From Magnetococcales bacterium (GTDB lineage: Bacteria > Pseudomonadota > Magnetococcia > Magnetococcales > Magnetaquicoccaceae): a DNA stretch of 43,664 nucleotides. A model generated the notes under the pieces. It made no database searches and was not told the DNA's origin. It saw nothing but the letters and a program-made list of their open reading frames with translations. This document shows positions 15,275 to 40,812 of this stretch, piece by piece. Each line of letters begins with the position of its first letter. The stretch's first letter is position 1. Where the stretch lies: positions 1 to 43,664 of the forward strand of contig JADGAZ010000022.1 of NCBI GenBank assembly GCA_015231755.1. The letters run 5' to 3'. The position numbers were made by a program, and so were the translations under genes.

Positions 15275-16102
15275 TCACCGCCCCAGCAGATTGATGGGGG
15301 AGGCCACCTCTCCGGATTGCAGAAAAGCCAATTCGATCCGCGTCAGCAGATACAAAACCTCCCGCCCCAGATTGACCACTTCATTGAAGACATCTTCGGA
15401 TCTGCGGAAATTTTTCCGGCGCAACAAACGGATGGTCTCTTCGGCCCTGGTGTGGAACAATTGGTGCTTTTCATCCAACTCTTGAACAATGCCAATGATT
15501 CTTTTGCTTTTGAGTCCCACTTCCTGGATCCATACCCCCACACTGCAAACATCGGAAGGTTCCAAAGTCGAATCCTTGCCCCAGTGCTGGAAGGCCCGCA
15601 GCAGTTGACGGGACCAACGCAGGTGCATCAATCGGGCATGACTGACCTCCAGAACCCCCCGTTTTTCGATCTCCCCTGAATCGGGGATGTGGATGTTGAA
15701 CAAACGATGGATGAAACTCTTGACCGGATGGGCGGAAAAATCGCTCAAGGGTTTGTGTTCCAGGTAATCCAGTTCCGCTTCGGTGATGAAATAGACGATA
15801 TCGCGGCTCAGGCTGCGTACCCGGTTCATCTCCCGTTCGATGTTCTCCTCCGAATCCATGGCAATCAACGAGACCAGACGATCGGCGGCTTGATGAAACT
15901 GCTCGTGCACCCCCACCAGACGCCGCACCGGATCCAGATGGTACAACTCCCGGATTCCGTCTCCATGCAGCCATACGCCCAGTTCACAATCCACATGGGA
16001 GGTCAGGTGGATCGTTTTTCGATGCTTTTGGACCATTTCTTCCAGTTCGGATTCCCAAAGCACATGGGCCATGCGGGCGATGCCGAGATCTACCTGATTC
16101 AT
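15275..16102 (-). CDS. Tandem CZB (chemoreceptor zinc-binding) domain protein
   Basis: 275 residues from the ATG at 16102. Two CZB-type four-helix domains are visible. Domain 1 has His13 (HVLW), Cys39 (CELGVWL), His66 and His70 (HEQFH). Domain 2 has His160 (HLRW), Cys186 (CSVGVWI), His213 and His217 (HQLFH). These are the 3His/1Cys zinc ligands of the family, complete in both. CZB domains sense zinc or oxidants such as HOCl and are usually fused to chemoreceptors or diguanylate cyclases; here they stand alone without an output domain. An upstream in-frame ATG at 16207 is less likely because conserved sequence begins at the later start. It is the last minus-strand gene of the cassette after mamT. 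Confidence 0.8.
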   Translation of the reverse strand: MNQVDLGIARMAHVLWESELEEMVQKHRKTIHLTSHVDCELGVWLHGDGIRELYHLDPVRRLVGVHEQFHQAADRLVSLIAMDSEENIEREMNRVRSLSRDIVYFITEAELDYLEHKPLSDFSAHPVKSFIHRLFNIHIPDSGEIEKRGVLEVSHARLMHLRWSRQLLRAFQHWGKDSTLEPSDVCSVGVWIQEVGLKSKRIIGIVQELDEKHQLFHTRAEETIRLLRRKNFRRSEDVFNEVVNLGREVLYLLTRIELAFLQSGEVASPINLLGR

Positions 16103-16148: not shown

Positions 16149-16340
16149 TCATTGGGAACCCTGGGGATCTTTTTTCCGATGGTGGTTTCCAACGGTTTGT
16201 GGAGCATTGGCCATCGTGTTGAACCACGTGTTCTTGCCGGAGTGGGCCAGACCCATGATCACCAGAACAGGGGCGCAGTCGGCCTGCTTCCAGGAAACCG
16301 GAAACGGCAGAAGCGTGGTGGTGAGGGTGCTGACAGACAT
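16149..16340 (-). pseudogene. Truncated P-loop NTPase/GTPase-like gene
   Basis: A 63-residue open frame starts at ATG 16340 with AAAGGAG 6 bp upstream, a strong ribosome-binding site. Its middle reads VLVIMGLAHSGKNTWFNTM, a hydrophobic strand followed by a Walker A-like loop (GLAHSGKN) and helix, as in small Ras/Arf/MglA-type GTPases. The frame stops 20 residues later, before any G2-G5 motif. A normal domain needs about 170 residues, so this looks like a 5' remnant of a gene whose rest was deleted or replaced up to the CZB gene. A genuine 63-residue protein cannot be excluded. Confidence 0.55.
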
Positions 16341-16373: not shown

Positions 16374-18398
16374 TTATCGGATTCCGACGGTTTTGGCGAT
16401 GTAGCCAACCGAAACCGCTGAAATATCCCGCAGATGATGGATTCCGTCGGGAGTCTTTTTGACCACTTTGCTGATGCTGACCCCCTTTTTGGTGCTCTTC
16501 GAGAAGGGATCCCAGAAGGCCGCCGGCACCACCACGGTTCCATCCTGACCGAATTCAAACAGATACGCGATTCCCCGATCAACCTGAAACACAATCCTGA
16601 TTGCGGAGATGGAATCGGGAGTGATGGTAAACTGATCCTCGGGCCGGAAGGCGGTATGTCCCATCATTTGGGCAATCGAGAACAGCACATCTCCATCTTT
16701 GTTGCGTTCGTAGGTCAAACCACCTCGCACGGTCCCCTTGGCGGGGGTGATTTTCAGGTAGGGCTCCTGAAGCAGGCGGTTGATGGGTAAATGATATTTG
16801 GCAAACCGCACCTGAAACGGAGCCGTGCTGTTTGGATCCTTGTCGGTCTGTTCCGCCGTCGCGGGTTTGGTTTCCTTGTTGGCTGGAACCTTGGAGTCCG
16901 CATCCGCCACCACGGTTCCCTTGGCCGTTGGGGTCTCTTTGCCAGAGGGGGCTGTGGCGGGAGACGGGGTTTCCGGCTTGGACATGGCTTGGTTAGCCGC
17001 CGGGGTCTCCTTGCCAGGGGTGGCCGTGGCGGGAGACGGGGTTTCCGGCTTGTTGGTAGGCGTGGCGGCGGCTTGGGTCTCCGCTGGCAACGCCGGCGCC
17101 GGTTTGGACTCAGGCGTCGCTGCGGTGGTGGATTGGGGGGCCGGTACGGTTGTCGGGGCGGTGGTGACGGGTTTGCTGTCTTCTGTCGGCGGACGCACCG
17201 CAGCCGGGGGGGCTGGCTGGAGGGTGACCGGGGCGGCGGGTGCGGGGGATGCGCTTTTGGACTCCGTTACCAGCACCGGCGGTTTGGGCGCGGGATCCGA
17301 TACCTTGGCAACCGTGGTCACCTGGGTTTGGGCAACAGGGGCAGGGGGCGTGGGATCCACGGGCCGCCCCAGGACCACCCAGACCGATGCCGCCACCAAT
17401 AGGCCCCCGGCGGCGATGCCACCCAAGGTCCGAAGATGCTGCCGCTTGCGTTGGAGTTGGCGTTCGTTTTCGAGGAGCACGGCTTGTCGTTGTTTTTCTT
17501 GCTCCTGATCTTCCAGCGCCAAGCGTTGCCGTTTGATCTCATCCAGATGCGCTTGACGGATGCGGTCTTCGATGTCTCCCAGTTGTTCTTCCTCTTCGTA
17601 CACCTCCGGTTCCGGCAGATCGTCGGATTCGGGGTCTTCCTCAGGAGCCGGCGAGAGGTCCACCAGCTCGATTTTTTTCATCTCTTCCGGGATCGGCAGC
17701 AAAACAATCCGTTCGGAAGGCAGTTGGGACAATCCCAACAGCAGATCCTGCTGCAACACCGTGGAAACCAGCAACCGAACCACACCCACCCGGATGCCAT
17801 CACGCCAGTCGATACGATGGCCCAGATCCGGCAGCGACGCCACCAGGGTGCCGACCACCTGGACCGCCTCTTTGACCTCGTTGAATTTTTTCCGATTGAC
17901 CTCCGGAGTGCCGGAGAGGGGAATGTGGATTGAAAAGAAATGCAGTCCTTGAAGCACAGCCTGTGATACGGCCTGGGGATAATGCCGGAGATCAAAATGG
18001 GGGGGATCGCTGTAAACCGCCAGAATGGCTTGAATGGCAACCGTTTCCGAATCGATGGAAATCGCTTCGCACGCCGTCACGTCATTCAGCAATTGTTGCA
18101 GTTTTTTCAATCCGGACAGCAGCACCTGAACGCTTTCCGGCTGGACAAAAATCATGGCTTCCCGCATCCGGGTAATCAGGGATTCCATGGATTGACTCAA
18201 CGAGACGATGTGCGTCAGATCATGAAAAATGGCCGAACCACCAATGCCACGGATGGTTCTCAATAAGGAATCCAGGACGTTGGCACCGGTGGTTGGATCC
18301 CCATCCATCAGGGAGGGCACCTGTGGCAGGATCGCGTCCAGGCGTTTTTGGGCTTCTTGAACGAGCAGCTTGACTTGAGAAAGATCGGTATCCAACAT
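16374..18398 (-). CDS. Membrane protein with degenerate CheA-like Hpt domain, coiled coil and Pro/Thr-rich linker
   Basis: 674 residues. Residues 1-115 resemble a CheA-type Hpt helical bundle (LLRTIRGIGGSA, then LSQSMESLITRMRE), but the phospho-acceptor His is replaced by Arg50. Residues about 125-235 form an alpha/beta-looking domain of unknown type. A charged region (ESDDLPEPEVYEEEEQ) and coiled coil (about 265-320) lead to one membrane helix (about 323-345). A Pro/Ala/Thr/Lys-rich linker (about 350-520) with repeats follows, then a C-terminal domain (about 525-674) that I do not recognise. The topology suggests a cytoplasmic N-terminus and a periplasmic or magnetosome-lumen C-terminus. GGAGG lies about 8 bp before the ATG. 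Confidence 0.75.
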   Translation of the reverse strand: MLDTDLSQVKLLVQEAQKRLDAILPQVPSLMDGDPTTGANVLDSLLRTIRGIGGSAIFHDLTHIVSLSQSMESLITRMREAMIFVQPESVQVLLSGLKKLQQLLNDVTACEAISIDSETVAIQAILAVYSDPPHFDLRHYPQAVSQAVLQGLHFFSIHIPLSGTPEVNRKKFNEVKEAVQVVGTLVASLPDLGHRIDWRDGIRVGVVRLLVSTVLQQDLLLGLSQLPSERIVLLPIPEEMKKIELVDLSPAPEEDPESDDLPEPEVYEEEEQLGDIEDRIRQAHLDEIKRQRLALEDQEQEKQRQAVLLENERQLQRKRQHLRTLGGIAAGGLLVAASVWVVLGRPVDPTPPAPVAQTQVTTVAKVSDPAPKPPVLVTESKSASPAPAAPVTLQPAPPAAVRPPTEDSKPVTTAPTTVPAPQSTTAATPESKPAPALPAETQAAATPTNKPETPSPATATPGKETPAANQAMSKPETPSPATAPSGKETPTAKGTVVADADSKVPANKETKPATAEQTDKDPNSTAPFQVRFAKYHLPINRLLQEPYLKITPAKGTVRGGLTYERNKDGDVLFSIAQMMGHTAFRPEDQFTITPDSISAIRIVFQVDRGIAYLFEFGQDGTVVVPAAFWDPFSKSTKKGVSISKVVKKTPDGIHHLRDISAVSVGYIAKTVGIR
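16930..17052 (-). repeat. 72-bp direct repeat in the Pro/Thr-rich linker
   Basis: A near-identical 51-bp segment occurs at 16930-16980 and again at 17002-17052, a 72-bp (24-codon) period. It encodes KPETPSPATA followed by a GKETP motif. The period keeps the reading frame, so the linker can vary in length. Confidence 0.8.
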
Positions 18399-18442: not shown

Positions 18443-19378
18443 CTAGGAAAATTTGAAGAAATTATCAAATTTCATATGGTCGAACGCCATTCGGACATGG
18501 GGGCTGCAATGGATGATCGATATATCCCGTCCCTGGTTTTCACGATTGTACTGGTTCAGCAGCAACATGGTTCCGAAGGCCGCTTTTCCGATGTGTACGG
18601 TGTCCTGGAAATCAAGAATGTATTTTGTCTTTCCGGAACGCCCGCGGTAGATTTTCGCAAAATTGTTTCTGCAATTGTAGTCAAACATTTTGGCGATCCG
18701 AATGGTGACCGTGACTTGTCCATCCGCGTCCTGTGCAACGCTGACTTTGAACTTGTGGGCTTCGTCCTCGTCGGAATCTTCAGCCAGGAGGGTGATATTG
18801 ATGCCCGGAATATCCAACTGTGACAGGGTATTGAACACCTCTTTGTTGCAATGGGAAATCTGTATAGTGTCGCGTTCCCCCTGGTTGTGGGCTTCCAGGT
18901 GCAGCAGCATGGCCAATCCCGAGGCCGTAACGCTGGTGACATTGGCAAAGTTGAAGCGATACCGCCAGGACGGGGGTCTGTCTTGGTAGATCTTGATGAA
19001 ATCATTCCAGAATTCGGCACTGAAATCCCCCCGGAAATGGACGATAGTTTCCATCTGGGTATGATCGATAAACTTGATCCCACTGCGGGAGGATTCGATC
19101 AGTTTCGGGAATACGCTTTTTTCTTCGAGCGTCACCAAAGAGATTCCGGTTTTGGTCACCCGTGCGACCGAGACCTTTTCTTCGAGGGGTACCCCCTCCA
19201 ACACGAATTTCAGGACACCTTTCTGGCCCACTTCAATGGGATACTGGGTTGGCAGCACCAGAAACAAGGCATGGGTGTTGACATCCAGCGCATTGCCGGA
19301 ATATCCGTTGAACTCCATGGGCAGTCCACAAAAGACCCGGTCATTTCTTCTTCTGTTGGTTGCGATTGCCATGGCCAT
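18443..19378 (-). CDS. PilZ-like plus two STAS-like domains
   Basis: 311 residues. Residues 1-95 resemble PilZ: an RRRNDR motif near the N-terminus and a beta-rich region, but the second PilZ motif (D/N-x-S-x-x-G) reads DVNTHA, so c-di-GMP binding is uncertain. Two STAS-like halves follow (about 105-200 and 210-311), each with the hydrophobic strand-loop-helix signature (NFANVTSVTASGLAMLLHL and LDFQDTVHIGKAAFGTMLL). The second lacks the usual loop Ser. The ATG at 19378 is 1 bp after the receiver gene stop and has GGGGAG 6 bp upstream, so the two are probably translationally coupled. A scaffold or anti-sigma-antagonist-like role is inference. Confidence 0.65.
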   Translation of the reverse strand: MAMAIATNRRRNDRVFCGLPMEFNGYSGNALDVNTHALFLVLPTQYPIEVGQKGVLKFVLEGVPLEEKVSVARVTKTGISLVTLEEKSVFPKLIESSRSGIKFIDHTQMETIVHFRGDFSAEFWNDFIKIYQDRPPSWRYRFNFANVTSVTASGLAMLLHLEAHNQGERDTIQISHCNKEVFNTLSQLDIPGINITLLAEDSDEDEAHKFKVSVAQDADGQVTVTIRIAKMFDYNCRNNFAKIYRGRSGKTKYILDFQDTVHIGKAAFGTMLLLNQYNRENQGRDISIIHCSPHVRMAFDHMKFDNFFKFS

Positions 19379-19379
19379 T

Positions 19380-19796
19380 TCAAGTCTCCCCACCGATATG
19401 ATCCGGGATCAGATTGAATTTACGTAGTTTTTCCAATAAGACCTGCCGCGTGACCGGTTTGGTCAGATAATCCGAACATCCCCCCTTGAAATAGGCCTCC
19501 ATGGCCTGCAACGAAGAATCCATGCCGGTGACCATGATGACGGGGGTCTCTTTGGCGTCCGCCGCAATCCGTTTTTCGGCGGCCCGAATGCGGGTCAGGG
19601 TCTTTTGACCATCCATCACCGGCATGATGATATCCAGCAACACCAGATTGTAAGGGTCACCATCCTCCAAGTCGGCAACGAACAATTCCAAGGCAGCCTT
19701 GCCATCGCTGACCATGTCGCAGTGGGCATATTCTTTCAGGTAATCTCTCAATAATTTTCTATTGTTCAATTCGTCATCAGCGATTAAAATTTTCAT
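19380..19796 (-). CDS. Single-domain response regulator (CheY-like)
   Basis: 138 residues, receiver domain only. The acidic pair (IADDE, residues 5-9), phospho-acceptor Asp55 (LVLLDIIMPVMDG), the Thr/Ser position (VTGMD) and conserved Lys (YLTKPV) are all present. The start at 19796 has GAAGAGGA about 8 bp upstream and overlaps the kinase stop by 20 bp. It is the likely acceptor of the neighbouring kinase and could act as a CheY-like diffusible output. Confidence 0.88.
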   Translation of the reverse strand: MKILIADDELNNRKLLRDYLKEYAHCDMVSDGKAALELFVADLEDGDPYNLVLLDIIMPVMDGQKTLTRIRAAEKRIAADAKETPVIMVTGMDSSLQAMEAYFKGGCSDYLTKPVTRQVLLEKLRKFNLIPDHIGGET

Positions 19797-22700
19797 GTTT
19801 TTGGTCCTCTTCAATCAGGAAGTGAATGAGACTTTCCACATACTGTTCCAGGTTCCGGCACATCATCAACGCATCTTCCCACGCTTCCGTTTCCACTTGT
19901 CCAATCATTCGGATGGTTTGGGTGACGATACGAGAGGCGCCAATCTGGGCGGCCATGGATTTCAGCCATGTTCCTTCCCGAATCACGGTGCCGGAATTTT
20001 CCTGCATTAATGATTTTTTTAATTTTTCCAGATGCTCGAATGCCTCTTTGATGAATGACTGTTTCAGGATGATCAGATTGGTCGGATCCGTTTCCACGGG
20101 GTTCAGAACAATCTCCCGGTTGACGGGGGGTTGGCCGGTTTTTCTTTTTTTGGAGAACGAGGCTACAATGTTGATCAATTCGATCGGCAGGTAGGGCTTC
20201 AGCAAAAAACCATTCATCCCCACTTCCAGACATCTTTTTTTTTCGTTCATCATGACCATGGCGGTCACCGCCACAATGGGCACCTGTGGATCGCCAACCT
20301 CTTGTCGGGAACCCGAACGAATGCGCCGGGTGGTCTCGAACCCATCCATTTCCGGCATCTGCAAATCCATCAGGATCAAATCGAACCGTGCGCCCTTTGT
20401 CAGTATGAGCAGGGCTTCCACGCCATTGCTGGCCACCGTGACCTTGTGGTCTTGTGTGTGCAGAATGTTCATGGCCAACTTCTGGTTTTCCGGCAGATCC
20501 TCCACCAGCAAGATTTCCAGAGGTTGAATATCCGTTCTTTTACGCAGTGGTTCGTTTTCTTCGTATTTGTGATTCGGTTCGTTCAGAACCGGGGAGATGA
20601 TATGCAGAATTTTCTTAAGAAGATGCTGATTCCTGATGGGCTTCTTCAATGAGATCGCATTCTTGAAGAGACCTTCCAGAATGAAATTACGCAAGGAAAG
20701 ATGCGAAGAAATCATCAGGATGATTTTGTTCGAATAGGCGGGATAGTGCGCTTCATCGATCAAACCGGCTTCGGCTTCCTGCACGATCTCTTCATCCACC
20801 ATGATGACATCAAAGGGATTGTCGCTGTGTGTCCGCATGCAATCCATCATGGCTGGCGCATGCGAGACCATTTCCACAGAGGCGCCAAAATGCAACAACA
20901 GACTGTGGAGGATGGCGCGCCCGGTGGGATGGTTGTCCACCAACAAGATGCGTCGATCCTGAAGGGGAGTCGGGTGGGATTGGTATGCCTCCGGGCCTTG
21001 TTTCATCCAGGAGTCCGCCACCGGATCCTGTCGGCTCAAACCGAGTCGAATGGTGAAATAAAACATGCTCCCGTGTCCAACCTGACTTTCAACCTGTAGG
21101 CTTCCTCCCATCAAATAAACCAGATGTTTGGAAATGGTCAGACCCAGACCCGTTCCGCCATATTTGCGGGAAATGGAGCCATCCGCTTGCACAAAACTTT
21201 GAAAGATCAAATGCAGTTGTTCATCCGGGATGCCGATGCCGGTATCCGAGACGGAAAAGCGCACATGAATGGCATCCTCGGGGGCTTTTTCCAGGGGGGC
21301 TTCCCGTTGGACCGAGAGGACTATTTCGCCTTCGTGGGTGAATTTGATGGCATTGTTGATCAGGTTCACCACAATTTGTTTCAGACGCAGCGGATCCCCG
21401 TCCAGCAGGGCCGGCAGATCCGGGGCGATCTGACAATAAAATCCTAAGCCCTTCTGGTGGGCCTTGATGGCCAACATGTCGCAGGCGTTTTCCAACTGAC
21501 CCACTAGGTCAAACGGGACATACTCCAAGGCGAAGTGACCCGCCTCGATCTTGGACAGGTCCAGAATGCCGTTGATGAGATCCAGCAGGGATAACGAAGA
21601 GGAACGCACAATTTGCAGATTGCTGAAGATTTCATCTTTGGACAATTGGGCACTTAAAACCAGATCGGTCATGCCGATGATGGCATTCAAGGGACTTCTG
21701 ATTTCATGGCTCATGTTGGCCAGAAATTCACTTTTGGCTTTGCTGACCGCTTCCGCTTTTTCCCGCGCGTCTTGCAACTCCTGGTCGATTCTGGAACGCA
21801 CAATGATATTGGCCAGGGCCTGACCAATGGAATTGAACATCAGATTGTCAAAAATCTCCTTCATGATGGAACTGGAAACCACCAGTCTCAAGATGCCAAG
21901 ATTCTCGTTGCCGGAGAACAGCGGGATGCAGTAATCGATTTTCCCTTCCATTTTTTCCTGGATTGTCATGTCGGAACCCAGAGAATAAACGCTCATCATG
22001 GGATCGGAAAACATGGAAACAATGCAAGAGGAACACTCGTCGGAAACGTTTGTGCATTGATGCTGCTGCGGAAAACAGTTGTCCGGCTCTTGCGCCACCA
22101 GATTGAAGCCGTTCGTGACGCGATCCCATAAAAAAATCGCTACGTGAATGTTTTCGGAAGCCAGCCAGGGCAGCCTGACAATAAAACCAAGGGCGCGCTG
22201 CAACTGCTCTTGCAGGGAGCGGGTTTCCAGGGAGAGATGCAGCAGATGATTGACCGTTTTCTGGGTCTGCAAAGAGATGGTGGCGTTGCGTTCGGAACTG
22301 CGTACCCGATCGATTTCAATCATTTTGTCTTTGAAGCTGTTTTCCGCGACCAGCAAGGTGTCCTTCAATGCCAAGGAGAGCTGTTTGTAGGCCGTGATAT
22401 CGCGAATGCTGGCCACACAATGAATCACACCGTTGATCAGAGTCAGGAACAAGGAGAGTTCCAGATCAATCCGGGCGCCATTGGAATGCAGTCCTTGCAG
22501 GAAAATTCTTCTCAGAAAACGCGGTGTCAGATTGGGTTGTTCCCGCAGCGCTTTGATGCCCTTCTGATGGGCGAAACGGAACTCCGGAGGAATGATCAGC
22601 TTGGCAATATCTTTGCCGATGACCTCATCGCGGGAAAATCCGAATAACTCTTCCGCGGATTGGTTGAAGACGATGATCCGATCTTGAAGATCCGTAATGA

Positions 22701-23178
22701 TCAGCGCGTCCAGACCGTAATCGATCAGACTGCGGGCCAATCCTTCCAGTTTATGGGAACTGCCCATCGCACAGGACAGACCTTTTGAATCCGTGTTCCG
22801 CAGCACATTGAAATCATGCACGCGTTGGAGCAACAGAAACGGTTGAACCGGCAAATAGATGAAATCGTCCGCTCCGCATTCCATGGCGCGGGCTTCCGAG
22901 GTGATCATGTAATAACGGGAGAAAAGAATGATTGGAATGGTGCAGGAGGGTTCTTCGGACTTCAGTTGATGGCAGATTGCGTAACTATCAAAGTTCCGGA
23001 TCGTGATATCCAGGAAAATGACCAATGGTGATGGCGATTTTTTGGCAAGACGGAGAATGGCCTCCGCGCTTTCGATACCCTCGACCCGGTATCGGCTGGA
23101 CAGGATACTTTTGGGAGAACCCGGTTCCTCATGTTGCGCGTCGGCAATGAGGATCGTGGCGGTTTCATTTTCCAACAT
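19777..23178 (-). CDS. Hybrid histidine kinase REC-PAS-GAF-HisKA-HATPase-REC-REC with degenerate Hpt
   Basis: About 1133 residues from the ATG at 23178 (GGAGGGGG 3-5 bp upstream). Order: N-terminal REC (Asp57), PAS (about 130-270, LDALIITDLQDRIIVFN), a GAF-like domain (about 320-460) that is Cys-rich (CFPQQHQC, ECSSC), HisKA (His491 in SHEIRSP), HATPase (GGTGLGLT), a diverged REC, a canonical REC (Asp938 in LMDLQMPEMDG), and a C-terminal helical region that aligns with Hpt (TWLKSMAAQIGA) but has Thr1070 where His is expected. No membrane segment is apparent. It overlaps the upstream gene by 14 bp and the downstream receiver gene by 20 bp. Confidence 0.87.
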   Translation of the reverse strand: MLENETATILIADAQHEEPGSPKSILSSRYRVEGIESAEAILRLAKKSPSPLVIFLDITIRNFDSYAICHQLKSEEPSCTIPIILFSRYYMITSEARAMECGADDFIYLPVQPFLLLQRVHDFNVLRNTDSKGLSCAMGSSHKLEGLARSLIDYGLDALIITDLQDRIIVFNQSAEELFGFSRDEVIGKDIAKLIIPPEFRFAHQKGIKALREQPNLTPRFLRRIFLQGLHSNGARIDLELSLFLTLINGVIHCVASIRDITAYKQLSLALKDTLLVAENSFKDKMIEIDRVRSSERNATISLQTQKTVNHLLHLSLETRSLQEQLQRALGFIVRLPWLASENIHVAIFLWDRVTNGFNLVAQEPDNCFPQQHQCTNVSDECSSCIVSMFSDPMMSVYSLGSDMTIQEKMEGKIDYCIPLFSGNENLGILRLVVSSSIMKEIFDNLMFNSIGQALANIIVRSRIDQELQDAREKAEAVSKAKSEFLANMSHEIRSPLNAIIGMTDLVLSAQLSKDEIFSNLQIVRSSSLSLLDLINGILDLSKIEAGHFALEYVPFDLVGQLENACDMLAIKAHQKGLGFYCQIAPDLPALLDGDPLRLKQIVVNLINNAIKFTHEGEIVLSVQREAPLEKAPEDAIHVRFSVSDTGIGIPDEQLHLIFQSFVQADGSISRKYGGTGLGLTISKHLVYLMGGSLQVESQVGHGSMFYFTIRLGLSRQDPVADSWMKQGPEAYQSHPTPLQDRRILLVDNHPTGRAILHSLLLHFGASVEMVSHAPAMMDCMRTHSDNPFDVIMVDEEIVQEAEAGLIDEAHYPAYSNKIILMISSHLSLRNFILEGLFKNAISLKKPIRNQHLLKKILHIISPVLNEPNHKYEENEPLRKRTDIQPLEILLVEDLPENQKLAMNILHTQDHKVTVASNGVEALLILTKGARFDLILMDLQMPEMDGFETTRRIRSGSRQEVGDPQVPIVAVTAMVMMNEKKRCLEVGMNGFLLKPYLPIELINIVASFSKKRKTGQPPVNREIVLNPVETDPTNLIILKQSFIKEAFEHLEKLKKSLMQENSGTVIREGTWLKSMAAQIGASRIVTQTIRMIGQVETEAWEDALMMCRNLEQYVESLIHFLIEEDQKHENFNR

Positions 23179-23755
23179 GCGCCCCCTCCGCAATACTTTC
23201 CACCGCATGAGAAAGACCGAAGGTGACTACATAAGGGATGATATGTTTTTCCGACCCGATTTTGATCTCAAACAATCCACGGCGGGAGGTTTGTTTCCAG
23301 ACCACCCGATACCGGACCATGAATCCGGGATCGGTGGAAAAATTGATCTTGACCCGGCGGGTGATCTGGGTGCCAAACTCGATATGCAGACTTTTTTTCA
23401 ACTCTTTTTGAACCATGCTTTCCAGTATGATCCAAAGGGAGGCCTTGAAATGGTTGCCGAAAGACTGTTGATCGGTGATGGACAGGCTGATGTTGGCCGT
23501 CCGGGTGAATTCGTGCTCGCTGCTTAACACCTTGTTGCCGTAGCGATTGTCCAGGGGGACTTCCTCGGTGGCCAGCACAATGGAATCTTCTCCAATAATG
23601 CTTTCGCGCATGAATTCGATGGTGGAAGAGGCGGTTTCCGGCAGCCGCTCCAGCGGGGGACGGTCAAAGGTTTGATCGGCGATGATCGGAATGTATTTCT
23701 TGCCCAGCAATCCGCCAACCACGGCAGCCACACCATAGGGAATGAGTTGAAGCAC
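23165..23755 (-). CDS. Small protein with N-terminal hydrophobic anchor, function unknown
   Basis: 196 residues from the GTG at 23755, chosen because GAGGAGG lies 5 bp upstream; the longer frame from 23815 has no such site. The N-terminus (LIPYGVAAVVGGLLGKKY) is a glycine-rich hydrophobic segment that could insert in a membrane. The rest is predicted beta-rich with alternating hydrophobic residues (FTRTANISLSITD, HIEFGTQITRRVKINFS). I do not recognise the family. It sits between a coiled-coil gene and the hybrid kinase, which it overlaps by 14 bp, suggesting a shared role. Confidence 0.65.
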   Translation of the reverse strand: MLQLIPYGVAAVVGGLLGKKYIPIIADQTFDRPPLERLPETASSTIEFMRESIIGEDSIVLATEEVPLDNRYGNKVLSSEHEFTRTANISLSITDQQSFGNHFKASLWIILESMVQKELKKSLHIEFGTQITRRVKINFSTDPGFMVRYRVVWKQTSRRGLFEIKIGSEKHIIPYVVTFGLSHAVESIAEGAHVGK

Positions 23756-23825
23756 GGAAGCCTCCTCGGATTGATGCTGGTATGGTGGATTCCAATAAGA
23801 ACAACACGTTGGCACACAATAAAGG

Positions 23826-24740
23826 CTAGACGCCCGGTTGCAATGCTTCCAATTGTTTCAACTGTTCGAGGTATTCCATGTGTTTCATCAGTTCCATTTG
23901 TTTGATGCGATCCATTTGCACTACATGGTCTTGATGCATGCGACGCATTTCTCCCAGGAAGTTGGGGAAATCTTCGTGGAGTTGGGCCATCAGATCATGG
24001 GCCTGGACAATGGTTTCCAGATTGCCGCGAAACAGTTGTCCGACATTCTGGAACGGCGTCACCACAATTTGCAAAGCCTGCTGGGTGCGTTCAAAAGAGG
24101 CCTGACATTTTTCAATCTCCTTGCCGACATTTTGCAGCATTTCGGAGATTTCGCGATCCGTTCCGGAACGGTTGCCGCTGAGCATTTCATTCAGTTGCAG
24201 CAAGGCATTGTTTTTCATCTCCTCGGCCTGACGCCCTTCTTCTTCGAGCATTTCGATCAGGGGCTTCAGATAAATCATGATGCGAGGATCAATACGCTTC
24301 TCCAGGGTCTGGAGAATGGTGCTTTGTTGCGTCTGGAACTGGTTGAACAGATCCGGAACCTGGGACAAAACCTCCAGGTTTTCCGCCATGGGAGAGGCGA
24401 CCGCAACCGGAGTGCTGCCGGCTTTTTCGATCAGTTTGGCCATGGATTCCTGCAGATCGGATACATCTTTGCGAACCGCCGCCAAGCCGGCTTTCATCTC
24501 TTCGGCGATGACCGACTTGGCCGATTTGGCAAAGGAGGCGCCATCCGACAGGCTGTCCGCCTTGCGCATGAAACTGGTGATGGCGGCAGCGGTAGTTTCA
24601 ATCTTGCCGAGCTTCTCATCCAAACTTTTGACATGAACCGCTGTCGAAAGATGTACCTCCACCACCTTCTTCAGCAGATCTTCCATGATGGTGATCCGGT
24701 TCTGGAGTCCCGCGTCTGAAGACATGACGTGTTGAGGCAT
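23826..24740 (-). CDS. Coiled-coil protein directly after mamT, function unknown
   Basis: 304 residues, almost entirely helical with heptad-like spacing (IMEDLLKKVVEVHLS, KSLDEKLGKIET, VSDLQESMAKLIEKA). The C-terminal about 45 residues are rich in Met, His, Gln and Leu (MRRMHQDHVVQMDRIKQ, then MELMKHMEYLEQL). No membrane helix or signal peptide is visible. It starts 20 bp after the mamT stop with AAGGAG 9 bp upstream of the ATG, so it is probably transcribed with the mam operon. It resembles the signalling helices of chemoreceptors in composition only; no family is claimed. Confidence 0.65.
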   Translation of the reverse strand: MPQHVMSSDAGLQNRITIMEDLLKKVVEVHLSTAVHVKSLDEKLGKIETTAAAITSFMRKADSLSDGASFAKSAKSVIAEEMKAGLAAVRKDVSDLQESMAKLIEKAGSTPVAVASPMAENLEVLSQVPDLFNQFQTQQSTILQTLEKRIDPRIMIYLKPLIEMLEEEGRQAEEMKNNALLQLNEMLSGNRSGTDREISEMLQNVGKEIEKCQASFERTQQALQIVVTPFQNVGQLFRGNLETIVQAHDLMAQLHEDFPNFLGEMRRMHQDHVVQMDRIKQMELMKHMEYLEQLKQLEALQPGV

Positions 24741-24760: not shown

Positions 24761-25276
24761 TTATTTGATTTGTACATACACCAAAATATCATGACATTTG
24801 ATGCATCTCCCCGAAGGGGGATGGGGTCGGGTCGAGTTGGGCATGATCGGCGGTCCGACTTTGTAATAGGCGGACACCTGTTCCCAGACTTTGGCAACCG
24901 GGGTGGCAGGTTGACTGCCCGGCGGTGCTCCTCCCCGAATCAAATGACAATTGGTACACGGTCCCCAGGAGGGGTGGGGCATCTTGGCTCCTGGCTCGAT
25001 GGTGGGAATGCGCTTGACCAGCATTCTTTGCAACGAGTTGGACGGTGGATTGACCAGTTGCAGCACCGGTTCTTGCAAAGAGGGTTGAGTCGGCTTGGGA
25101 ATGGATCCAAAAACCTCTCCTTCAACCTGTGAGGTGGGTTCATCCGTGAACAGGGTGGACCACAAGGATGCGCCCTTGTCCGATCTCCACAGGAGGCCCA
25201 ATCCAATCAAGGCGATCAAAACGATCACTGCAAGAGTGGCCCAGCGGCCGGAGGTGTTGGATTGGGTACCGTTCAT
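24761..25276 (-). CDS. mamT: MamT, magnetosome protein with two magnetochrome (CXXCH) motifs
   Basis: 171 residues. A single N-terminal membrane helix (LAVIVLIALIGLGLLW, about residues 15-31) anchors a periplasm/lumen-facing domain. Two c-type haem motifs, CTNCH and CIKCH, lie in the C-terminal third, each preceded by the P-H-P-x-x-G-x-C pattern typical of magnetochromes. In MamT these are known to affect crystal growth, presumably through iron redox. The ATG at 25276 is 7 bp after the mamS stop; a longer frame overlapping mamS is not preferred. Confidence 0.88.
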   Translation of the reverse strand: MNGTQSNTSGRWATLAVIVLIALIGLGLLWRSDKGASLWSTLFTDEPTSQVEGEVFGSIPKPTQPSLQEPVLQLVNPPSNSLQRMLVKRIPTIEPGAKMPHPSWGPCTNCHLIRGGAPPGSQPATPVAKVWEQVSAYYKVGPPIMPNSTRPHPPSGRCIKCHDILVYVQIK

Positions 25277-25283
25277 CGCCCGC

Positions 25284-25865
25284 CTATCGCAACTTGTTGG
25301 ACCAAAGAGCAAAGCCTTCATCATTGCGCAGTTGACACAGTCTGCCGTTGATGCGAATCCGCTTGGCGTAGATCAGGGGAGACGTGCCGTTTCGTTCAAA
25401 CGAAAAACCCGAGCCATCCACCGCGACATCATGGGCCAGCGGACAGCCCAGATATTTGAGAAACCAACCCGGTCCCACGGAAATACGCATTTCCTGGCCA
25501 TTGGCGCCGTTGATCCACAGATGCAGTTGCCCATCGCTTTGGGGTTGTTCGGAAATCTGTTGCACGGTTCCGGCGAATTTGACCGTGGGCGACTGCTGCA
25601 ACAAAACCAGACCGGAAGCCCCGGCTCCGGCGCCATCGGTGGGGGTGCGGGCGGCGGCCACGGGAATCATGCGCAACGCCTCTTGTCCTGGCGGTTTCAA
25701 CAGGGCGTTGGTCCCCACCTGAGGGGTGGTGGCCGCAACGGGAAGCGTCTGGGGTTTGGTGGGTTCCCAGAACCGGTCCGGCAACAACGACGCGACCATC
25801 ACTCCAACCACAAAGACCATGCCGGCAACCACGATCCATTCGCCAGGTTCCATCGACCGTTTCAT
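25284..25865 (-). CDS. mamS: MamS-like magnetosome protein
   Basis: 193 residues. One N-terminal membrane helix (WIVVAGMVFVVGVMVASLL) is followed by a Pro/Ala-rich linker and a C-terminal beta-rich domain (VKFAGTVQQISEQ, LHLWINGANGQEMRISVGPGWFL). This agrees with MamS, which in Magnetospirillum is needed for normal crystal size. Its place between mamB and mamT matches the conserved mamQ-B-S-T order, which supports the name. Gaps are 12 bp to mamB and 7 bp to mamT. Confidence 0.82.
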   Translation of the reverse strand: MKRSMEPGEWIVVAGMVFVVGVMVASLLPDRFWEPTKPQTLPVAATTPQVGTNALLKPPGQEALRMIPVAAARTPTDGAGAGASGLVLLQQSPTVKFAGTVQQISEQPQSDGQLHLWINGANGQEMRISVGPGWFLKYLGCPLAHDVAVDGSGFSFERNGTSPLIYAKRIRINGRLCQLRNDEGFALWSNKLR

Positions 25866-25877
25866 GAGATCCGCCCC

Positions 25878-26759
25878 TTAGTCCCGAACATCCGGTGTGA
25901 GGTAGAATTGGATGCTGCCAATATTTTCGACACTCTGCATGATCTTCTCCTTGAGAGCCGCCAGGATCAGATCCCCTTCAAACACCTTGAGATCCTTGTT
26001 CACCCGCAGATCCGCCTCGATATACAGGCTTTCTCCCAGGCTCCGGGCCCGCAAATAGTTGATGCCCATGACGCGGGGAAAGGTGCGGATGATCTTGTAA
26101 ACCCCTTCCAACTCCTCCACATCCGGGGAGGCGTCCATCAGATTGTTCACCGCTTCGACCATCAGTTCGATGCCGATCTTGATCACCAGAATCGACAACA
26201 GAATGGCGGCCAGGGGGTCGGCGATGGGAAAATCCAGAATGGTGGCGAAAAACAGTCCGATCACCATGCCGATGGAAGAAAACGCGTCCGAACGATTGTC
26301 CCAGGCATTGGCCATGATGGCCGGGCTGTTGTTTTCAATGGCCACGCAGCGTTGGTATTGATACATCAGTTCATTGCCGATGGTGGAAACCACGGCACCC
26401 AGCAAAGCCATGCGGTCCGGTGTGGCGAAGGTGTTGTTGATGATGCTCAACAAGGCATCCACCAGAATGAAAATTGATCCGATCACCAGGATCAGTCCCA
26501 CGATCCCCGAGGAAATATGCTGAATCTTGCCATACCCGTAGGCGAATTTTTCGTCCGCGGGCTTGTCGGAAAGTCTGAGGCTGAACAGGGTAAACACACT
26601 GGCCAACAGGTCGGCCAGCGAATGGAACGCATCGGCCATGAGGGCCGCGCAATTGGTCACCAGGGACATGACCACCTTGTAGGCCACCATGAATACATTG
26701 AACCAGATCGAATACCAAGTCACATCATCGCGACATTGAACACAGTGTGGGTACTTCAT
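25878..26759 (-). CDS. mamB: MamB, CDF-family iron transporter of the magnetosome membrane
   Basis: 293 residues, the length of a cation diffusion facilitator. Six membrane helices are followed by a cytoplasmic domain of about 80 residues. An N-terminal Cys6-x-x-Cys9 pair, MADAFHSLAD (His46, Asp50) in helix 2 and DNRSDAFSS in helix 5 correspond to the CDF metal site. MamB works with MamM and also takes part in forming the magnetosome vesicle. GAGG lies about 11 bp before the ATG. The 220-bp gap upstream (26760-26979) is the widest inside the mam cluster. Confidence 0.93.
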   Translation of the reverse strand: MKYPHCVQCRDDVTWYSIWFNVFMVAYKVVMSLVTNCAALMADAFHSLADLLASVFTLFSLRLSDKPADEKFAYGYGKIQHISSGIVGLILVIGSIFILVDALLSIINNTFATPDRMALLGAVVSTIGNELMYQYQRCVAIENNSPAIMANAWDNRSDAFSSIGMVIGLFFATILDFPIADPLAAILLSILVIKIGIELMVEAVNNLMDASPDVEELEGVYKIIRTFPRVMGINYLRARSLGESLYIEADLRVNKDLKVFEGDLILAALKEKIMQSVENIGSIQFYLTPDVRD

Positions 26760-26979
26760 AAGGTATCGGCCTCGCCGGAAATCAGGAATGCCCTGTGACC
26801 CAAAGTCACGTCAATGGGTGCATGTTCAATACAGTGTCTCCCTGCCATGACCAGTCATGACAGAGATGAAGTCGTGTGACTCCCAGAAACAACCTTGTCG
26901 GTTGTCCGGTGCGCCAAATCCGGGATGAAAGCCACGTCGTCACGCCAAGCATCCGCGCTCCGGGCTGTCATCGGGGTGT
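26760..26979 (-). promoter_or_regulatory. mamQ-mamB intergenic spacer with an inverted repeat
   Basis: This 220-bp spacer is long compared with the other mam junctions (mostly under 100 bp). It contains the short inverted repeat CATGA (26846-26850) / TCATG (26855-26859). No convincing promoter or terminator is seen. It may hold an internal promoter for mamBST and the downstream signalling genes. Confidence 0.3.
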
Positions 26980-28635
26980 TCATGGGGTGGCCAAGTCCGA
27001 TGGTTCCGCGGTCTTGGTCACCACAGGTTTGGCCGAAGCGATGGAGACTTTGTCCGTGGGCGCGGTGGTCCCGCCTGCCGCTTTGGCCGCCTTGGAGGAT
27101 TTTGTTCCATTGTCTGTTTTGGCCGCGGGTTTTCCGGTCCCTTCCGTTGCCTTGGCGGGTTGGGCTGGTGAGGCCCCCATCGGTTTGTCCGTTCCTTTTT
27201 GAGCGTTGACCGGTGGGGCTTTTCCTCCCGTTTCCGGTTTGGCGGCGGCGGAAGCGGGAGCTTTGCCCTTGGGGTTTGGGGATTCGTGATCCACATTGCC
27301 CAGCGTGTCGGTACTCGGCTTCGGTGGTTCCGGATGAACCGCTGCGTCATCGGATGGCGGTGTCTCCTTGGCCGGCGGACTGACCAACTTGTTTTCCGAG
27401 ATCAAACGCATGCTCTTTTTGGCATCCGGTTCCACCGGGTCGGCTTTCCGGGTTTGGGATGCGTCTGTCCCCATATCCGGCGCGGGCATGGCCGGCGGAT
27501 TGGATTCGGCAGGGGAGACGGCCTTTTCAGGTTTGGGTTCCGCGGGGAGGGGTTGTCCCGGCGGCAGCCGACCGTTTTCCGGTTGCGAGGGGGCCGGAGC
27601 CGCTTTGTCTCCGGTTTTTTCACCCGTTCCGGGTTGGACTTTGTCGGACTCGGGTTGGACCTTGCCTGGAGGAACCGCCGGAGTCGGGGCGGCGGTACCG
27701 GTTTCGGGGGCGGCGGCACCGGGGGCGTTGGGTAGCGGAGTGCCGGTACCGGTTTCCGGTTTGTTGACCTCTTTGTGATGGGTGTTGGTCAATTCCACTT
27801 CCGGAATCAGACGCATGAATTTTCTGGAATCCAGGTCCATGTTCATGTTGTCCGGGCCCGTGCCGGCGGTGAAATATTGATAACGCTCAAACCCCAAGAT
27901 CCGGGACATGATCGACCAGGGGAAGGAGGTGATCAACGTGTTGTACAATTTGACTTCCGTATTGTATTCATCACGTCGCTGACTGATCATGTTTTCGATA
28001 TCCACCAGTTTGTCCATCAGTTGCTGGTAGGTGGTCGATGTTTTGATGTCAGGATACTGCTCGACCAGTCCAAAGAGCCGGGAAAGGGCTTCCATGGGGG
28101 AGCTGGGCGTCGGCGTCGGTACCGCTGGACTGGGAAACGGTTGTGAGGCCGAAAGTTTCTGGGGCGGGGCGGAGGCATGGGACTGGGCCGGTTGACCGGA
28201 TGATCCCTGTTGACCGTTGTTCCCCCCCGAGGTGGTTTGTCCCATCATGCCCAGGCGTCCATCCGAAACATAGCGGAACACTTCCTGTTCCAGCATGGCA
28301 TGGTTCAAGGTCAGATTGACCAAGTTGCCAAACAGGTTGGAACGCCGTTGCAGGGCATCGTGAATGTGTCCACGGGAAGAGAGAACCTGTTCTTCCGCAG
28401 CCACGAACCGGTTGAAATTGTAAAACGTGGTCACGATCAAAAAGACGATGGCACTGATGCTGGAGACCAGTATCAACGACTTGGACTTGATGGGAGGGAG
28501 AGTGGTGGCATGGGTGGCCTCTTCCTCCTGATAAAGCTGGCGCATCAGTTTACGCATGCGTTGCATGCGTTCACTGCTGGTCAACTCCAGCCCGATGTCA
28601 TCCATCTCGTCCATAGGATCTTTTTTATCCGACAT
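26980..28635 (-). CDS. mamQ: MamQ (LemA family) with a long Pro/Lys-rich C-terminal extension
   Basis: 551 residues. Residues 1 to about 290 fit MamQ: an N-terminal helix, one membrane segment (LILVSSISAIVFLIVTTFY, about 53-71) and a LemA-type helical domain (FVAAEEQVLSSRGHIHDALQ start, YNTEVKLYNTLITSFPWS end). MamQ is required for magnetosome vesicle formation. MamQ is usually about 270 residues; here a further about 260 residues, rich in Pro, Ala, Lys and Thr, follow. A Gly/Ser/Gln-rich insert also splits the LemA part (about 135-180). The tail repeats a short motif (RKFMRLIPEVEL and KKSMRLISENKL). It starts 19 bp after mamA. Confidence 0.88.
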   Translation of the reverse strand: MSDKKDPMDEMDDIGLELTSSERMQRMRKLMRQLYQEEEATHATTLPPIKSKSLILVSSISAIVFLIVTTFYNFNRFVAAEEQVLSSRGHIHDALQRRSNLFGNLVNLTLNHAMLEQEVFRYVSDGRLGMMGQTTSGGNNGQQGSSGQPAQSHASAPPQKLSASQPFPSPAVPTPTPSSPMEALSRLFGLVEQYPDIKTSTTYQQLMDKLVDIENMISQRRDEYNTEVKLYNTLITSFPWSIMSRILGFERYQYFTAGTGPDNMNMDLDSRKFMRLIPEVELTNTHHKEVNKPETGTGTPLPNAPGAAAPETGTAAPTPAVPPGKVQPESDKVQPGTGEKTGDKAAPAPSQPENGRLPPGQPLPAEPKPEKAVSPAESNPPAMPAPDMGTDASQTRKADPVEPDAKKSMRLISENKLVSPPAKETPPSDDAAVHPEPPKPSTDTLGNVDHESPNPKGKAPASAAAKPETGGKAPPVNAQKGTDKPMGASPAQPAKATEGTGKPAAKTDNGTKSSKAAKAAGGTTAPTDKVSIASAKPVVTKTAEPSDLATP

Positions 28636-28654
28636 GAGCGGTCAAATCCAGTTT

Positions 28655-29317
28655 CTAGCTGTCCTGAATGGCTTCTTTGAGTTCAGAGGTCTTTTTGAAA
28701 AAGACCACGGCCTCGTCATGTTTGCCCTGCTGGTCCAGCACGAAACCAATCGACTGATAGACCTTGATCTCGGAGGGACGAATGGCCAACGCCTGCTGGA
28801 ACGCTTCAATGGCCGCGTCGTATTCACCCAGATGATCCAGGGCCAGTCCCAACCGATAGTGCATGTTGAAATTGTTGGGGGCCTTTTCGATCGCGCCTTT
28901 GAGAACCGTCACCGCTTTCTGGTAATCCTTGGCCTGAATGTAGGCCATGCCTAAAATGGAGTTGACCCGGGTGCTGGAGGGATCCTTTTCACGGGCTTTT
29001 TCCAGGGTGAGAATCCCTTCCCGGGTTTGTTCGGTCTTGAGATAACCATATCCCAGGTGAAACAGGGTCTCTTCATCCTGGGGCCATTGCCGCACCACCT
29101 GCTCCAACAGGGGCAAGGCCTGCCAGTAACGACCGTGTTTGATATGGTCGATACCGCGGTCGCGATAAAATTTGGCCCGCATTTCACCATCCACGGTGAA
29201 GACCGCATTGAAGGTGTCGATGGAACGGACCGCCGCACGCTGGACCACACCCAGAAACGCGTAAGAAAACAGTCGGACTTCATCCATTATATTGACAGGG
29301 GAACGCATATTGCTCAT
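28655..29317 (-). CDS. mamA: MamA, TPR magnetosome-associated protein
   Basis: 220 residues forming about five tetratricopeptide repeats (for example HIKHGRYWQALPLLEQVV, TLFHLGYGYLKTEQTREGI, YRLGLALDHLGEYDAAIEAF). No signal peptide is present, as expected for a cytoplasmic coat protein that self-assembles around the magnetosome. The position between mamP and mamQ is that of mamA in known clusters. Length agrees with the usual about 217 residues. Confidence 0.9.
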   Translation of the reverse strand: MSNMRSPVNIMDEVRLFSYAFLGVVQRAAVRSIDTFNAVFTVDGEMRAKFYRDRGIDHIKHGRYWQALPLLEQVVRQWPQDEETLFHLGYGYLKTEQTREGILTLEKAREKDPSSTRVNSILGMAYIQAKDYQKAVTVLKGAIEKAPNNFNMHYRLGLALDHLGEYDAAIEAFQQALAIRPSEIKVYQSIGFVLDQQGKHDEAVVFFKKTSELKEAIQDS

Positions 29318-29341
29318 GGAGTTTTGATCCTTTTCCAGTCT

Positions 29342-30277
29342 TTAATTAATAATCGGATGACAGGCTTGACACGGTCCCCGATCCTTGTGGGGAGAGGTCA
29401 TTCCCATCCGTATGGGAGGAGGAGGCAGGATGATGCCATCGGGATCCGGCACGATATGGCCCGTGGTGCCGATGGCGTGACATTGGGTGCAAGGCCCGCG
29501 ATAAGGATGGGGCATGATTTCGCCGGGCAGGATCATGGGGGCGGTTTCCACCTGGGCAAAGCCCAGATTGCTCTTGGCCACCAACATGAATTGCTGCATG
29601 AGTCCACGACGAAACACCAGAATCGAGGCGGATTTGGCCATTTGCACCTTTTTGGTTTCGGCGAGCAGCTCTTCCAGACTCCGGACCGGATTGCCGTTCA
29701 CGGCCACAATCACATCACCGGCCAGCAGTCCGGCTTCGGCGGCATTGAGGGTGACTTCGTCGATCAACAGTCCTTCCAGTTCGATCGGCAGCTTGAGTTT
29801 CTTTTTCAGTTCAAGGGACAAAGGCAGCGCTTCCAACCCTTTCCAATGCCCTTCGGACAGTTTGGCCTTGGGATTGACAAACGGTTTGAGGGTCGGATCT
29901 GCTCCGGTATGGCCCACCAGGGAAGGCAGGGGGGCGTTTGCAACCGGTGGGGTGGCCATCATTGCGGGGGCGGAGGATGGCAGGCGGTTTGGAACCGGTG
30001 GAGCGGCCATTCCAGGAGCCGTCATGGTGCCGACTGGAGGACGACCGGGCTGAACCGGCAGCTCCATCCTGTTCATGGTTTCGGTTCCCACACGGTTGGA
30101 GGCCGTGGGGGCGGACACGGTTGGGCTGAGGGCTGGAGCAGGGTTGGCCTGTCCCACCGGGGCGGTTGCCGAACCCGGTTGCCCTTTCGGTTTGGGATCT
30201 GAAAAGAGGGCCACGATGATGAACGCGATCACCATGAGAAAGCCCGCAGTAACGATCGTGGCGGGGTTTGGTCTCAT
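29342..30277 (-). CDS. mamP: MamP, PDZ and double magnetochrome iron-oxidising protein
   Basis: About 312 residues from the ATG at 30277, which overlaps the mamO stop (ATGA) and has AAGGA about 10 bp upstream. One membrane helix near the N-terminus ([17 protein letters not shown]), a Pro/Ala-rich linker, a PDZ domain ([19 protein letters not shown] then [12 protein letters not shown]) and two c-type haem motifs (CTQCH, CQACH) at the C-terminus. MamP is known to bind iron and oxidise Fe(II), helping form mixed-valence magnetite. The linker is longer than in Magnetospirillum MamP (about 270 residues). Confidence 0.92.
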
Positions 30278-32232
30278 ATCAGAAACATCCTTACCGCAAT
30301 GACGAACATCAACGCCGCATAAATCCAGCGCAACATATTCAGGGGGATTACCGAGGTCAGCCATGCGCCGACCATGCCACCCACAAAGGCGCCGGGTGTC
30401 AGGATCAGGGCCATCAGGATCGGGGTCTGCAATTCAAAAGAACCGGTTTGCACCCCATGCCACAAGGCCACCACCGATCCGACCAACGAGGAGAAGAACA
30501 CCAATGTCGCACTGTTGGCAATGGCGTTTCGCAAGGGCATGCGGGCGATGTACCGTTGCAACGGGACTTCGATCACGCCTCCGGTAATGCCCAAAATACC
30601 GCTGATGACACCCATGGGCAGTCCAAGAACCCCGTGACGTGTTTTGGTGTTCTGCCAATGGGGGGGGGGAAGATCATCGTTGATCTGGTTGCCGAAATAT
30701 TTTTGCAGCCAGGGCAGGAAGGAGGATCCGGATTTTTTGGCAACCGTTTCATCTTCCAGCAGGGAATCCGGTTTACGCGGACCGGAGCGGGATTCGGAGA
30801 TTTCCACCAACATTTTGATGCCCAGCAGCAAAGCAAACACCCCCAACATCCATTGAATGGCGGTTTTGCTCATGACATTGCCGATGAAATAGCCCAACAC
30901 CATGCCGCCCATGGCCCAAGGAATCAAGGGTTTGCACTGGTCGAAGCGCAGCAGTCCCTGACGCTGATAACGCAGCATGGCCGCGCCATACATGAAAATA
31001 TTGGTGATGTAGGCCACGGGACGGACCAGCAGCAATCCATATCCAAAGAACCACATCAACCCCGTGACCTTGATGATGCCGCCACCCATGGTCATCATGC
31101 CACCGCTGATCCCGGAAATGAATCCAAGGAACAGCAGACCCAGGAAGTTTGCCGGCGTGTATCCCCAGATACGCAGAGTGGGGGCGTGGGTGGGATCTTG
31201 CACAGCACCCACCGGATCCACCGTTTGGGTCAGGGCCACATGTTTGCCCAGGCTCAGTCCCAGAATCCCTTGCACTTTTTTCCACCAGATATCGGCGGTT
31301 CTGGGGGGGTGGGGCGGAGCGGTGGCGGGTTGGGGATTGGGTACCGGAGTGGCCATCGGATCGGTCACCGTTCCCGCGGCCACGGCGGAACTCTTGTGTA
31401 CAAAGGTGACCACCTCTTGAAAATGGGTCACCAGAATGTTGGTCGGAATCGCGAACCCCAAGACATTGCCCACCCCATCTTGAATCGCCATATTGATGCC
31501 CACCAGATGTCCCTGATTGTTGACCAGGGGGCCACCGCTTTGCGCCCAATGAAAGACGGCGTCGGTTTGCATCAGATGGGTCAGGCTGCGATCCTTGATG
31601 ATTACCGGTTCGGTCAGGTCCATTTTGGCGACGGTGCCGATCCGTTGCAGGGCTTCGGTACCCAGGGGATCTCCCCAGGCCTGGACCTGATCCCCGACCT
31701 TGAGCACAGGGGTTTGTTCCAGGGCCAGATAGGGAAAGATGTCCTGGGAGACGATTTTGATCAGGGCCAGATTGTGTTGCGGCAGCACCTTGACCGTTTT
31801 GGCCGGATATTGCCGCGGTCCGAACGGAGTCTGGACGCGGACCTGAATTTCGGAAAGATCCTGGATCAGGTGCAGGGCCGTCACCACGTACCCTTTGGGA
31901 TTGATCAGAATTCCGGAACCCGCGCTGACATAGGATCCCACCGGGCTGTTGGGAGCCTTGTTGAGTCCGGCGATGTTCACCATGGCCACCCGGATGGGAT
32001 TGAATTCCTGCTCGGCGGGAGTCAAGGCGATATTCTGGGCTGCGAGGGACGAGGCGGCATCCGTCGGCACATGGGTCAGCATGCCCATGCCCAACTGCTC
32101 CGGGTGATCGCGCACCAGATGGATACCCCAGGCAATGGTGCCAAAAAAGAGCAGCACCAGCAAGGCAGCGGGAATCCTCCATGCCTGCCGGCAGAATGGA
32201 ATGATGTGCGGAGAGGGAGTGAATGATCTCAT
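30274..32232 (-). CDS. mamO: MamO, HtrA-like domain fused to a TauE/SafE membrane domain
   Basis: About 652 residues from the ATG at 32232; a TTG at 32268 would add 12. After one membrane helix comes a trypsin-like domain. Its triad positions read His121 (TALHLI), Asn154 (HNLALIK, where active homologues have Asp) and Ser232 (QSGGPL), so protease activity is doubtful. The C-terminal half (about 365-652) is an eight-helix TauE/SafE-type permease domain ([33 protein letters not shown]). This fusion is the hallmark of MamO, which is needed for magnetite nucleation and for MamE-dependent proteolysis. It overlaps mamP by 4 bp. Confidence 0.93.
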
Positions 32233-32326
32233 TTCAGTTTCCGGAAGAAGCCTTCTGTCCAGATCCAATGCTTTTGATGCCCAAGTGCTGTCTGGTTTTT
32301 TCGATGCGTCGTTTGATTAAAGAATC

Positions 32327-34656: not shown

Positions 34657-34874
34657 GGCCCATCATTCCTGCGTCGGTTACGTATGACTTTGCGCGCCAA
34701 ATGATTGACGGTTGCCAATAAAAATCCGCAGATGAATGCCCCTGATAAGATCAATATCATGGGCAATTCAATCGGCGGCCCCACAATCAGCCTGATCTGC
34801 ACGGTATGCATGTTCTGGGATGCAAAAATCAACAATAATAGCGACAGAATCAAGGAGATGAAAGATTTGGTCAT
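34653..34874 (-). CDS. mamL: MamL, small membrane protein for magnetosome vesicle formation
   Basis: 73 residues: two membrane helices (FISLILSLLLLIFASQN and LPMILILSGAFICGFLLATV) and a strongly basic C-terminal tail (RKVIRNRRRND). The LapA-like domain and basic tail are typical of MamL, which is required for vesicle formation. It lies between mamF and mamM and overlaps mamM. Confidence 0.9.
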   Translation of the reverse strand: MTKSFISLILSLLLLIFASQNMHTVQIRLIVGPPIELPMILILSGAFICGFLLATVNHLARKVIRNRRRNDGP

Positions 34875-34927
34875 CCCTTCTTTCCTCTCTTGTCATGCCT
34901 TTGCAGTCCCACCATCATGCCGGATTC

Positions 34928-35248: not shown

Positions 35249-35288
35249 GTCTGACACTCCATTCGTAAGGGGGGTTGACGATTCCCGT

Positions 35289-36332: not shown

Positions 36333-36406
36333 ATCTATCGATCCCTTGTGTGGATGGAAATGGGGAGAGTCGGTTTTGTCCGTCAAGGACAAACGTTGGT
36401 GCCATC

Positions 36407-38407: not shown

Positions 38408-38462
38408 CGGACTTTTCTCCTGTCAGCCGTTATTCACTGGCAAAAATAGGCATCTATCGCTG

Positions 38463-40556: not shown

Positions 40557-40562
40557 TGCGTT

Positions 40563-40787: not shown

Positions 40788-40812
40788 GACCAACCAATCC
40801 TTCCTAAGTTGA

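Follow-up and report, generated by a model that had tools for sequence, protein, structure and literature searches.

The magnetosome cluster and the CZB2 gene

The window, i.e. the whole stretch of DNA that was analysed (43,664 nucleotides from a Magnetococcales bacterium, GenBank assembly GCA_015231755.1, contig JADGAZ010000022.1), carries a mamAB magnetosome operon. MamT, MamS, MamB, MamA, MamP, MamN and MamM were identified as NCBIfam equivalogs above cut-off; MamO and MamQ scored below the cut-off, yet matched the expected profile. MamE and MamK were assigned by Pfam domain content and synteny, and MamH by its MFS Pfam match and position. Directly past mamT a signalling array begins, the last gene of which encodes the stand-alone tandem CZB protein CZB2 (Table 1). 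No plasmid match was obtained.

Table 1. Features of the CZB2 locus, with positions in the window.
Feature	Position	Strand	Evidence
CZB2, stand-alone tandem CZB protein, 275 aa	15275..16102	-	ORF, Pfam, ortholog alignment, profile match, AF2 model
C-terminal CZB domain (H160, C186, H213, H217)	15434..15625	-	PF13682 28 bits; 3T9O alignment E 6e-7
N-terminal CZB domain (H13, C39, H66, H70)	15872..16066	-	PF13682 above cut-off
Decayed 5' feoB remnant, 63-codon ORF	16149..16340	-	tblastn E 2e-9
p674: His-less HPt-like N-terminus, hydrophobic (membrane-like) segment, conserved C-terminal domain	16374..18398	-	Hpt 19 bits; conserved LRTxRG motif without His
STAS-like protein, array member	18443..19393	-	
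Single-domain response regulator (CheY-like), 79-94% identity across the array	19380..19814	-	
Hybrid histidine kinase (PAS-HisKA-HATPase-Rec-His-less HPt)	19777..23208	-	
p216: N-terminal hydrophobic helix and beta-rich domain; array member	23165..23815	-	
p304: coiled-coil protein, first gene past mamT	23826..24740	-	
mamAB operon: mamT, S, B, Q-like, A, P, O, N, M, K, 666-aa gene, mamE-type protease, mamH-type MFS	24761..42147	-	

Two further genes of the operon may be mentioned. The MamQ homolog (26980-28635) is unusually long, with 551 aa compared to a profile of 221 positions. For the 666-aa gene between mamK and mamE (36407-38407) no Pfam match was found; it sits at the maq1 position as in PMC6783814.

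The CZB2 ORF is free of internal stop codons. An in-frame ATG further upstream would give a protein of 310 aa (15275-16207). This start was rejected, since ortholog alignments begin at the methionine of the 275-aa form; the additional 35 codons run over the feoB remnant. The remnant lies directly upstream of CZB2 within the 271-bp gap to p674, in which no σ70-like promoter was found, and shares 45% identity with residues 1-53 of the FeoB encoded in genome G008, the P-loop Ser being replaced by Asn. In G008, a full feoB is located between p674 and CZB2. Most simply, the window would once have had the same gene order and then lost feoB.

Few array genes are as well conserved as the CheY-like receiver, whose phospho-site residues are intact. 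The phospho-His is missing from the C-terminal HPt of the hybrid kinase as well as from the HPt-like N-terminal part of p674, which makes a classical phosphorelay via these domains unlikely. Any control of a receiver at this locus would more likely work by the kinase acting directly or by protein binding than by transfer via the HPts. For p216, the predicted fold has a pLDDT of 77.7 and its structural matches are weak. Its beta-rich domain shows a weak similarity to aerolysin-like folds (TM at most 0.44), which may reflect only a shared long-strand topology. The adjacent GGDEF-EAL gene (12663-15248, plus strand) was considered as a c-di-GMP partner and discarded as the main one, since it runs convergently to CZB2 and is not a conserved neighbour.

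Beyond the window, ZorA-, ZorB- and ZorC-like genes (PADLOC 155, 218 and 175 bits) are found on the same contig (L089 817-6954, i.e. G000 C22:44416-50553). The ZorC-like gene has a C-terminal HPt-like domain; no ZorD was seen at this locus, where a MamB-like CDF gene comes next. In two other genomes (G001 and G002) CZB2 is immediately followed by the ZorA/B/C-like trio. For the trio's locus, PMC6783814 lists genes for EH-signature, MotB and apolipoprotein products without linking them to Zorya.

Domain content, metal ligands and origin of the tandem

Pfam CZB (PF13682) matches CZB2 twice, with 52.9 bits for the whole protein at a cut-off of 29.4. Taken by itself, the N domain scores 34.2 bits and the C domain 28.0 bits, slightly below the cut-off. 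A profile of the orthologs was aligned to the CZB crystal structure of DgcZ (3T9O) with an E-value of 6e-7, placing H160, C186, H213 and H217 on the zinc-ligand positions. The two domains, both genuine CZB, the eight ligand residues and the lack of an effector domain were all read correctly in the first-pass annotation. Searches of Pfam and NCBIfam returned no domain beyond CZB, and specifically neither an MCP signalling domain nor GGDEF nor the FeoC winged-helix family. The NCBIfam model of DgcZ matched in its CZB part only (49 bits versus a cut-off of 256). CZB2 therefore consists of two CZB domains without an effector domain. With its 3His/1Cys ligand set and the CxxG/W motif of alpha-3, it is assigned to the CZB domain family PF13682, and Zn2+ binding is predicted.

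Among the aligned two-domain orthologs (27-89% identity), none of the eight ligands varies, so the two-site match is not due to chance. Each half also carries a Trp at position +3 from the first His; in the two-domain orthologs W16 is nearly invariant and W163 invariant. According to a survey of CZB proteins (PMC8262984), this Trp is the signature of the cyclase subgroup. The AlphaFold2 (AF2) model of CZB2 reached a pLDDT of 84.7 and a pTM of 0.84. When the model was compared to 3T9O using Foldseek, a probability of 0.96, a target TM of 0.68 and an rmsd of 2.9 over 112 columns were obtained with a non-significant E-value of 2.0. As whole-model E-values were not significant, assignment of the CZB fold is based mainly on sequence.

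In a tree of single CZB domains, computed from short alignments and therefore uncertain at its deep nodes, the C halves of CZB2-type proteins come together as one clade (100/99) and the N halves as one group (72/78), and all CZB-only domains are separated from the CZB domains of MCP and CheW proteins of the same genome (100/99). This grouping, together with the invariant ligands, indicates that the tandem arose once and early and that both sites have been constrained since. Judged by the alignments and the tree, the domain pair is the product of one ancient internal duplication. E. coli DgcZ (PDB 3T9O, 4H54) shares with CZB2 the CZB fold, the 3His/1Cys ligands and the Trp at +3. DgcZ, however, has one CZB domain fused to GGDEF and forms a homodimer, whereas CZB2 has two in one chain and no effector. 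The fused tandem could act as a single-chain pseudo-dimer, comparable to the CZB homodimer of DgcZ.

The first-pass annotation had described CZB as normally a single module on a chemoreceptor or cyclase. This was overstated, as both the tandem and the CZB-only architecture have precedents. CZB-only proteins make up 27.1% of CZB proteins according to the survey (PMC8262984), and the window's own genome encodes a chemoreceptor of 670 aa whose N-terminal region, probably periplasmic, contains two CZB domains in tandem (L081 4782-6794, G000 C21). Another protein of this genome contains a CZB domain apparently inserted within a CheW domain (L006 1234-2067, G000 C11). The surveyed CZB-only proteins resemble CZB2 in having no other recognisable domain; in the excerpt (PMC8262984) they are uncharacterised, and tandem, magnetosome-linked members are not described.

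Two predicted high-affinity sites and no effector domain would also suit a protein that passively buffers zinc or serves as a metallochaperone and takes no part in signalling. We consider this improbable: in characterised proteins CZB sites are regulatory, and the cotranscription-like spacing with the kinase/receiver array suggests signalling.

Genomic distribution and neighbourhood

The gene order mamB-S-T-p304-p216-kinase-receiver-STAS-p674-CZB2 is shared by 13 Magnetococcales genomes, UR-1 (Ca. Magnetaquicoccus inordinatus) and WMHbinv6 among them, and in several of the 13 CZB2 starts only about 4-16 bp past p674. The suggestion of the first-pass annotation that CZB2 is a sensor or adaptor for its neighbours gains from this operon-like setting with the kinase and p674; the role itself is a reasonable assumption for two CZB domains without an effector in a conserved array. 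Further context came to light in the present analysis, namely the magnetosome cluster itself, FeoAB, a DtxR-type regulator and hemerythrins as neighbours, and pairs of single-CZB and MamB-like CDF genes.

In 48 Magnetococcales genomes, 36 two-domain (in 34 genomes) and nine single-domain CZB-only genes were found; 38 of the genomes have at least one. None was found in the other ten, among them the near-complete MAGs G026, G032, G035, G036 and G042. Hence, CZB-only genes are not essential for magnetosomes. Of the 45 CZB-only genes, tandem or single, 22 have mamB, mamE or mamK within 30 kb, compared with 0 of 97 other CZB genes of the same genomes (Fisher p 1e-13, not corrected for phylogeny, while the 22 linked genomes are related). 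The linked genes come from six family-level groups and show at least three different arrangements. For about half of the CZB-only genes no mam marker is found within 30 kb, some contigs being short. In other families, a two-domain CZB gene is found near mamH, mamE or mamK and sometimes adjoins p216 (L041, L046, L048), and in the f11 genomes a single-CZB gene is close to mamH, next to a Na/alanine symporter gene. By its recurrent mam linkage in several lineages, CZB2 is probably an accessory gene of the magnetosome cluster.

Outside the order, 350 Pseudomonadota genomes were sampled. MamB above cut-off was detected in three of them, and the only genome with a two-domain CZB-only gene (G122, C26:95405-96250, not beside mam genes) was one of these three. 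This co-occurrence, one case in three, is no more than suggestive.

Five genomes from four family-level groups (G008, G018, G023, G037, G041) have CZB2 adjoining feoB, accompanied by feoA or a gene for a DtxR/FeoA-domain protein; the orders feoA-feoB-CZB2 and CZB2-feoA-feoB are among those seen. The DtxR/FeoA-domain protein is present in G008 and G018; in G043, feoA alone is adjacent. A single-domain CZB gene lies directly downstream of a MamB-like CDF gene in four genomes (G000, G013, G017, G022), including that of the window (CDF and CZB pair at L078 7395-8766, G000 C3:37394-38765, also given as C3:37403-38765). These arrangements, and the feoB remnant upstream of CZB2 in the window, raise the possibility that CZB2 occupies the place of FeoC and controls or stabilises FeoB, with the single-CZB relatives doing likewise for the MamB-like CDF. 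Like CZB2, FeoC is a small cytosolic protein, encoded past feoB in some loci and proposed to be a metal/redox sensor. It is, however, a winged-helix protein and not a CZB protein, differing in fold and ligands, and can only serve as an analogy in the way it works. Moreover, most array members have no adjacent feoB; by a 2.6-kb criterion, FeoB adjacency applies to 4 of the 45 CZB-only genes and may only reflect the presence of both genes in the same island. A purely accessory function in iron transport is thus rather unlikely.

Oxygen-related genes are also found nearby. A Rec-hemerythrin gene is directly upstream of CZB2 in three genomes (G011, G015, G012), and a hemerythrin-PilZ gene is near CZB2 in L062 and its relatives.

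Proposed role of CZB2

We somewhat favour the reading that CZB2 is a stand-alone, cytosolic tandem CZB metal/redox sensor of the magnetosome cluster which signals via the cassette and/or iron transport. For this reading we infer metal binding, conformational signalling, partner and output as follows. Each half would hold a 3His/1Cys metal site, the occupancy of which would be set by labile metal and the redox state (Zn2+ in the precedents DgcZ, TlpD and McpA). A change in occupancy would alter the helical bundle of CZB2. The altered bundle would then act on the cassette of hybrid kinase, CheY-like receiver, STAS-like protein and HPt-like p674, and possibly also on Fe(II) import through FeoB. 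In this way, the handling of iron in magnetosomes, or else magneto-aerotaxis, would be adjusted to the oxic-anoxic interface. The CZB domains of DgcZ, TlpD and McpA respond to zinc and oxidants; by analogy, both halves of CZB2 most likely bind metal, and their occupancy would be reported to the cassette, FeoB or both.

The chemoreceptors TlpD and McpA share with CZB2 a CZB domain as sensor and are precedents for the sensing of HOCl, O2 and redox via Zn2+ (PMC6715182, PMC13370339). They have an MCP signalling domain, which CZB2 lacks, and the domains of CZB2 form a clade apart from the MCP CZB domains of its own genome. A 2026 preprint argues that it is the availability of Zn2+ by which redox is read, and that attraction to O2 is mediated by McpA (PMC13370339). 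Following this model, CZB2 might provide input to magneto-aerotaxis only, reading O2 or redox via labile Zn2+ and passing it by the hybrid kinase and the CheY-like receiver to flagellar behaviour, with no role in biomineralization. The high conservation of the receiver and the hemerythrin neighbours speak for such an input. The array, however, is devoid of MCP, CheA and CheW genes, and the associations with FeoAB and CDF would be left unexplained. We regard a role confined to taxis as possible, if doubtful.

No link of magnetosomes to CZB or a similar zinc-binding domain was found in the open-licence PMC literature, and, within that literature, a conserved tandem CZB-only family linked to the magnetosome cluster and with iron-transport neighbours appears undescribed. 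The sensor reading would take CZB biology beyond taxis and c-di-GMP and into an organelle gene cluster. CZB2 is also a naturally occurring example of two CZB domains paired in one chain.

To our knowledge, the sensing of metal and redox conditions which gates magnetite formation in magnetotactic bacteria is poorly understood. As a small, purifiable protein with predicted ligands open to mutation, CZB2 is a candidate for such a sensor. A wider proposal can be made only tentatively: CZB-only proteins, tandem or single, could serve magnetosome biology as a dedicated metal/redox sensing component, both in Magnetococcales and in at least one magnetotactic genome outside the order. They would tie Fe(II) import and efflux (FeoB, MamB-like CDF), as well as hemerythrins that sense O2, to a kinase-receiver cassette which sets the timing and amount of magnetite formation. 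The retention of CZB2 relatives in magnetosome clusters across the order points to a metal/redox sensor for making or using the organelle.
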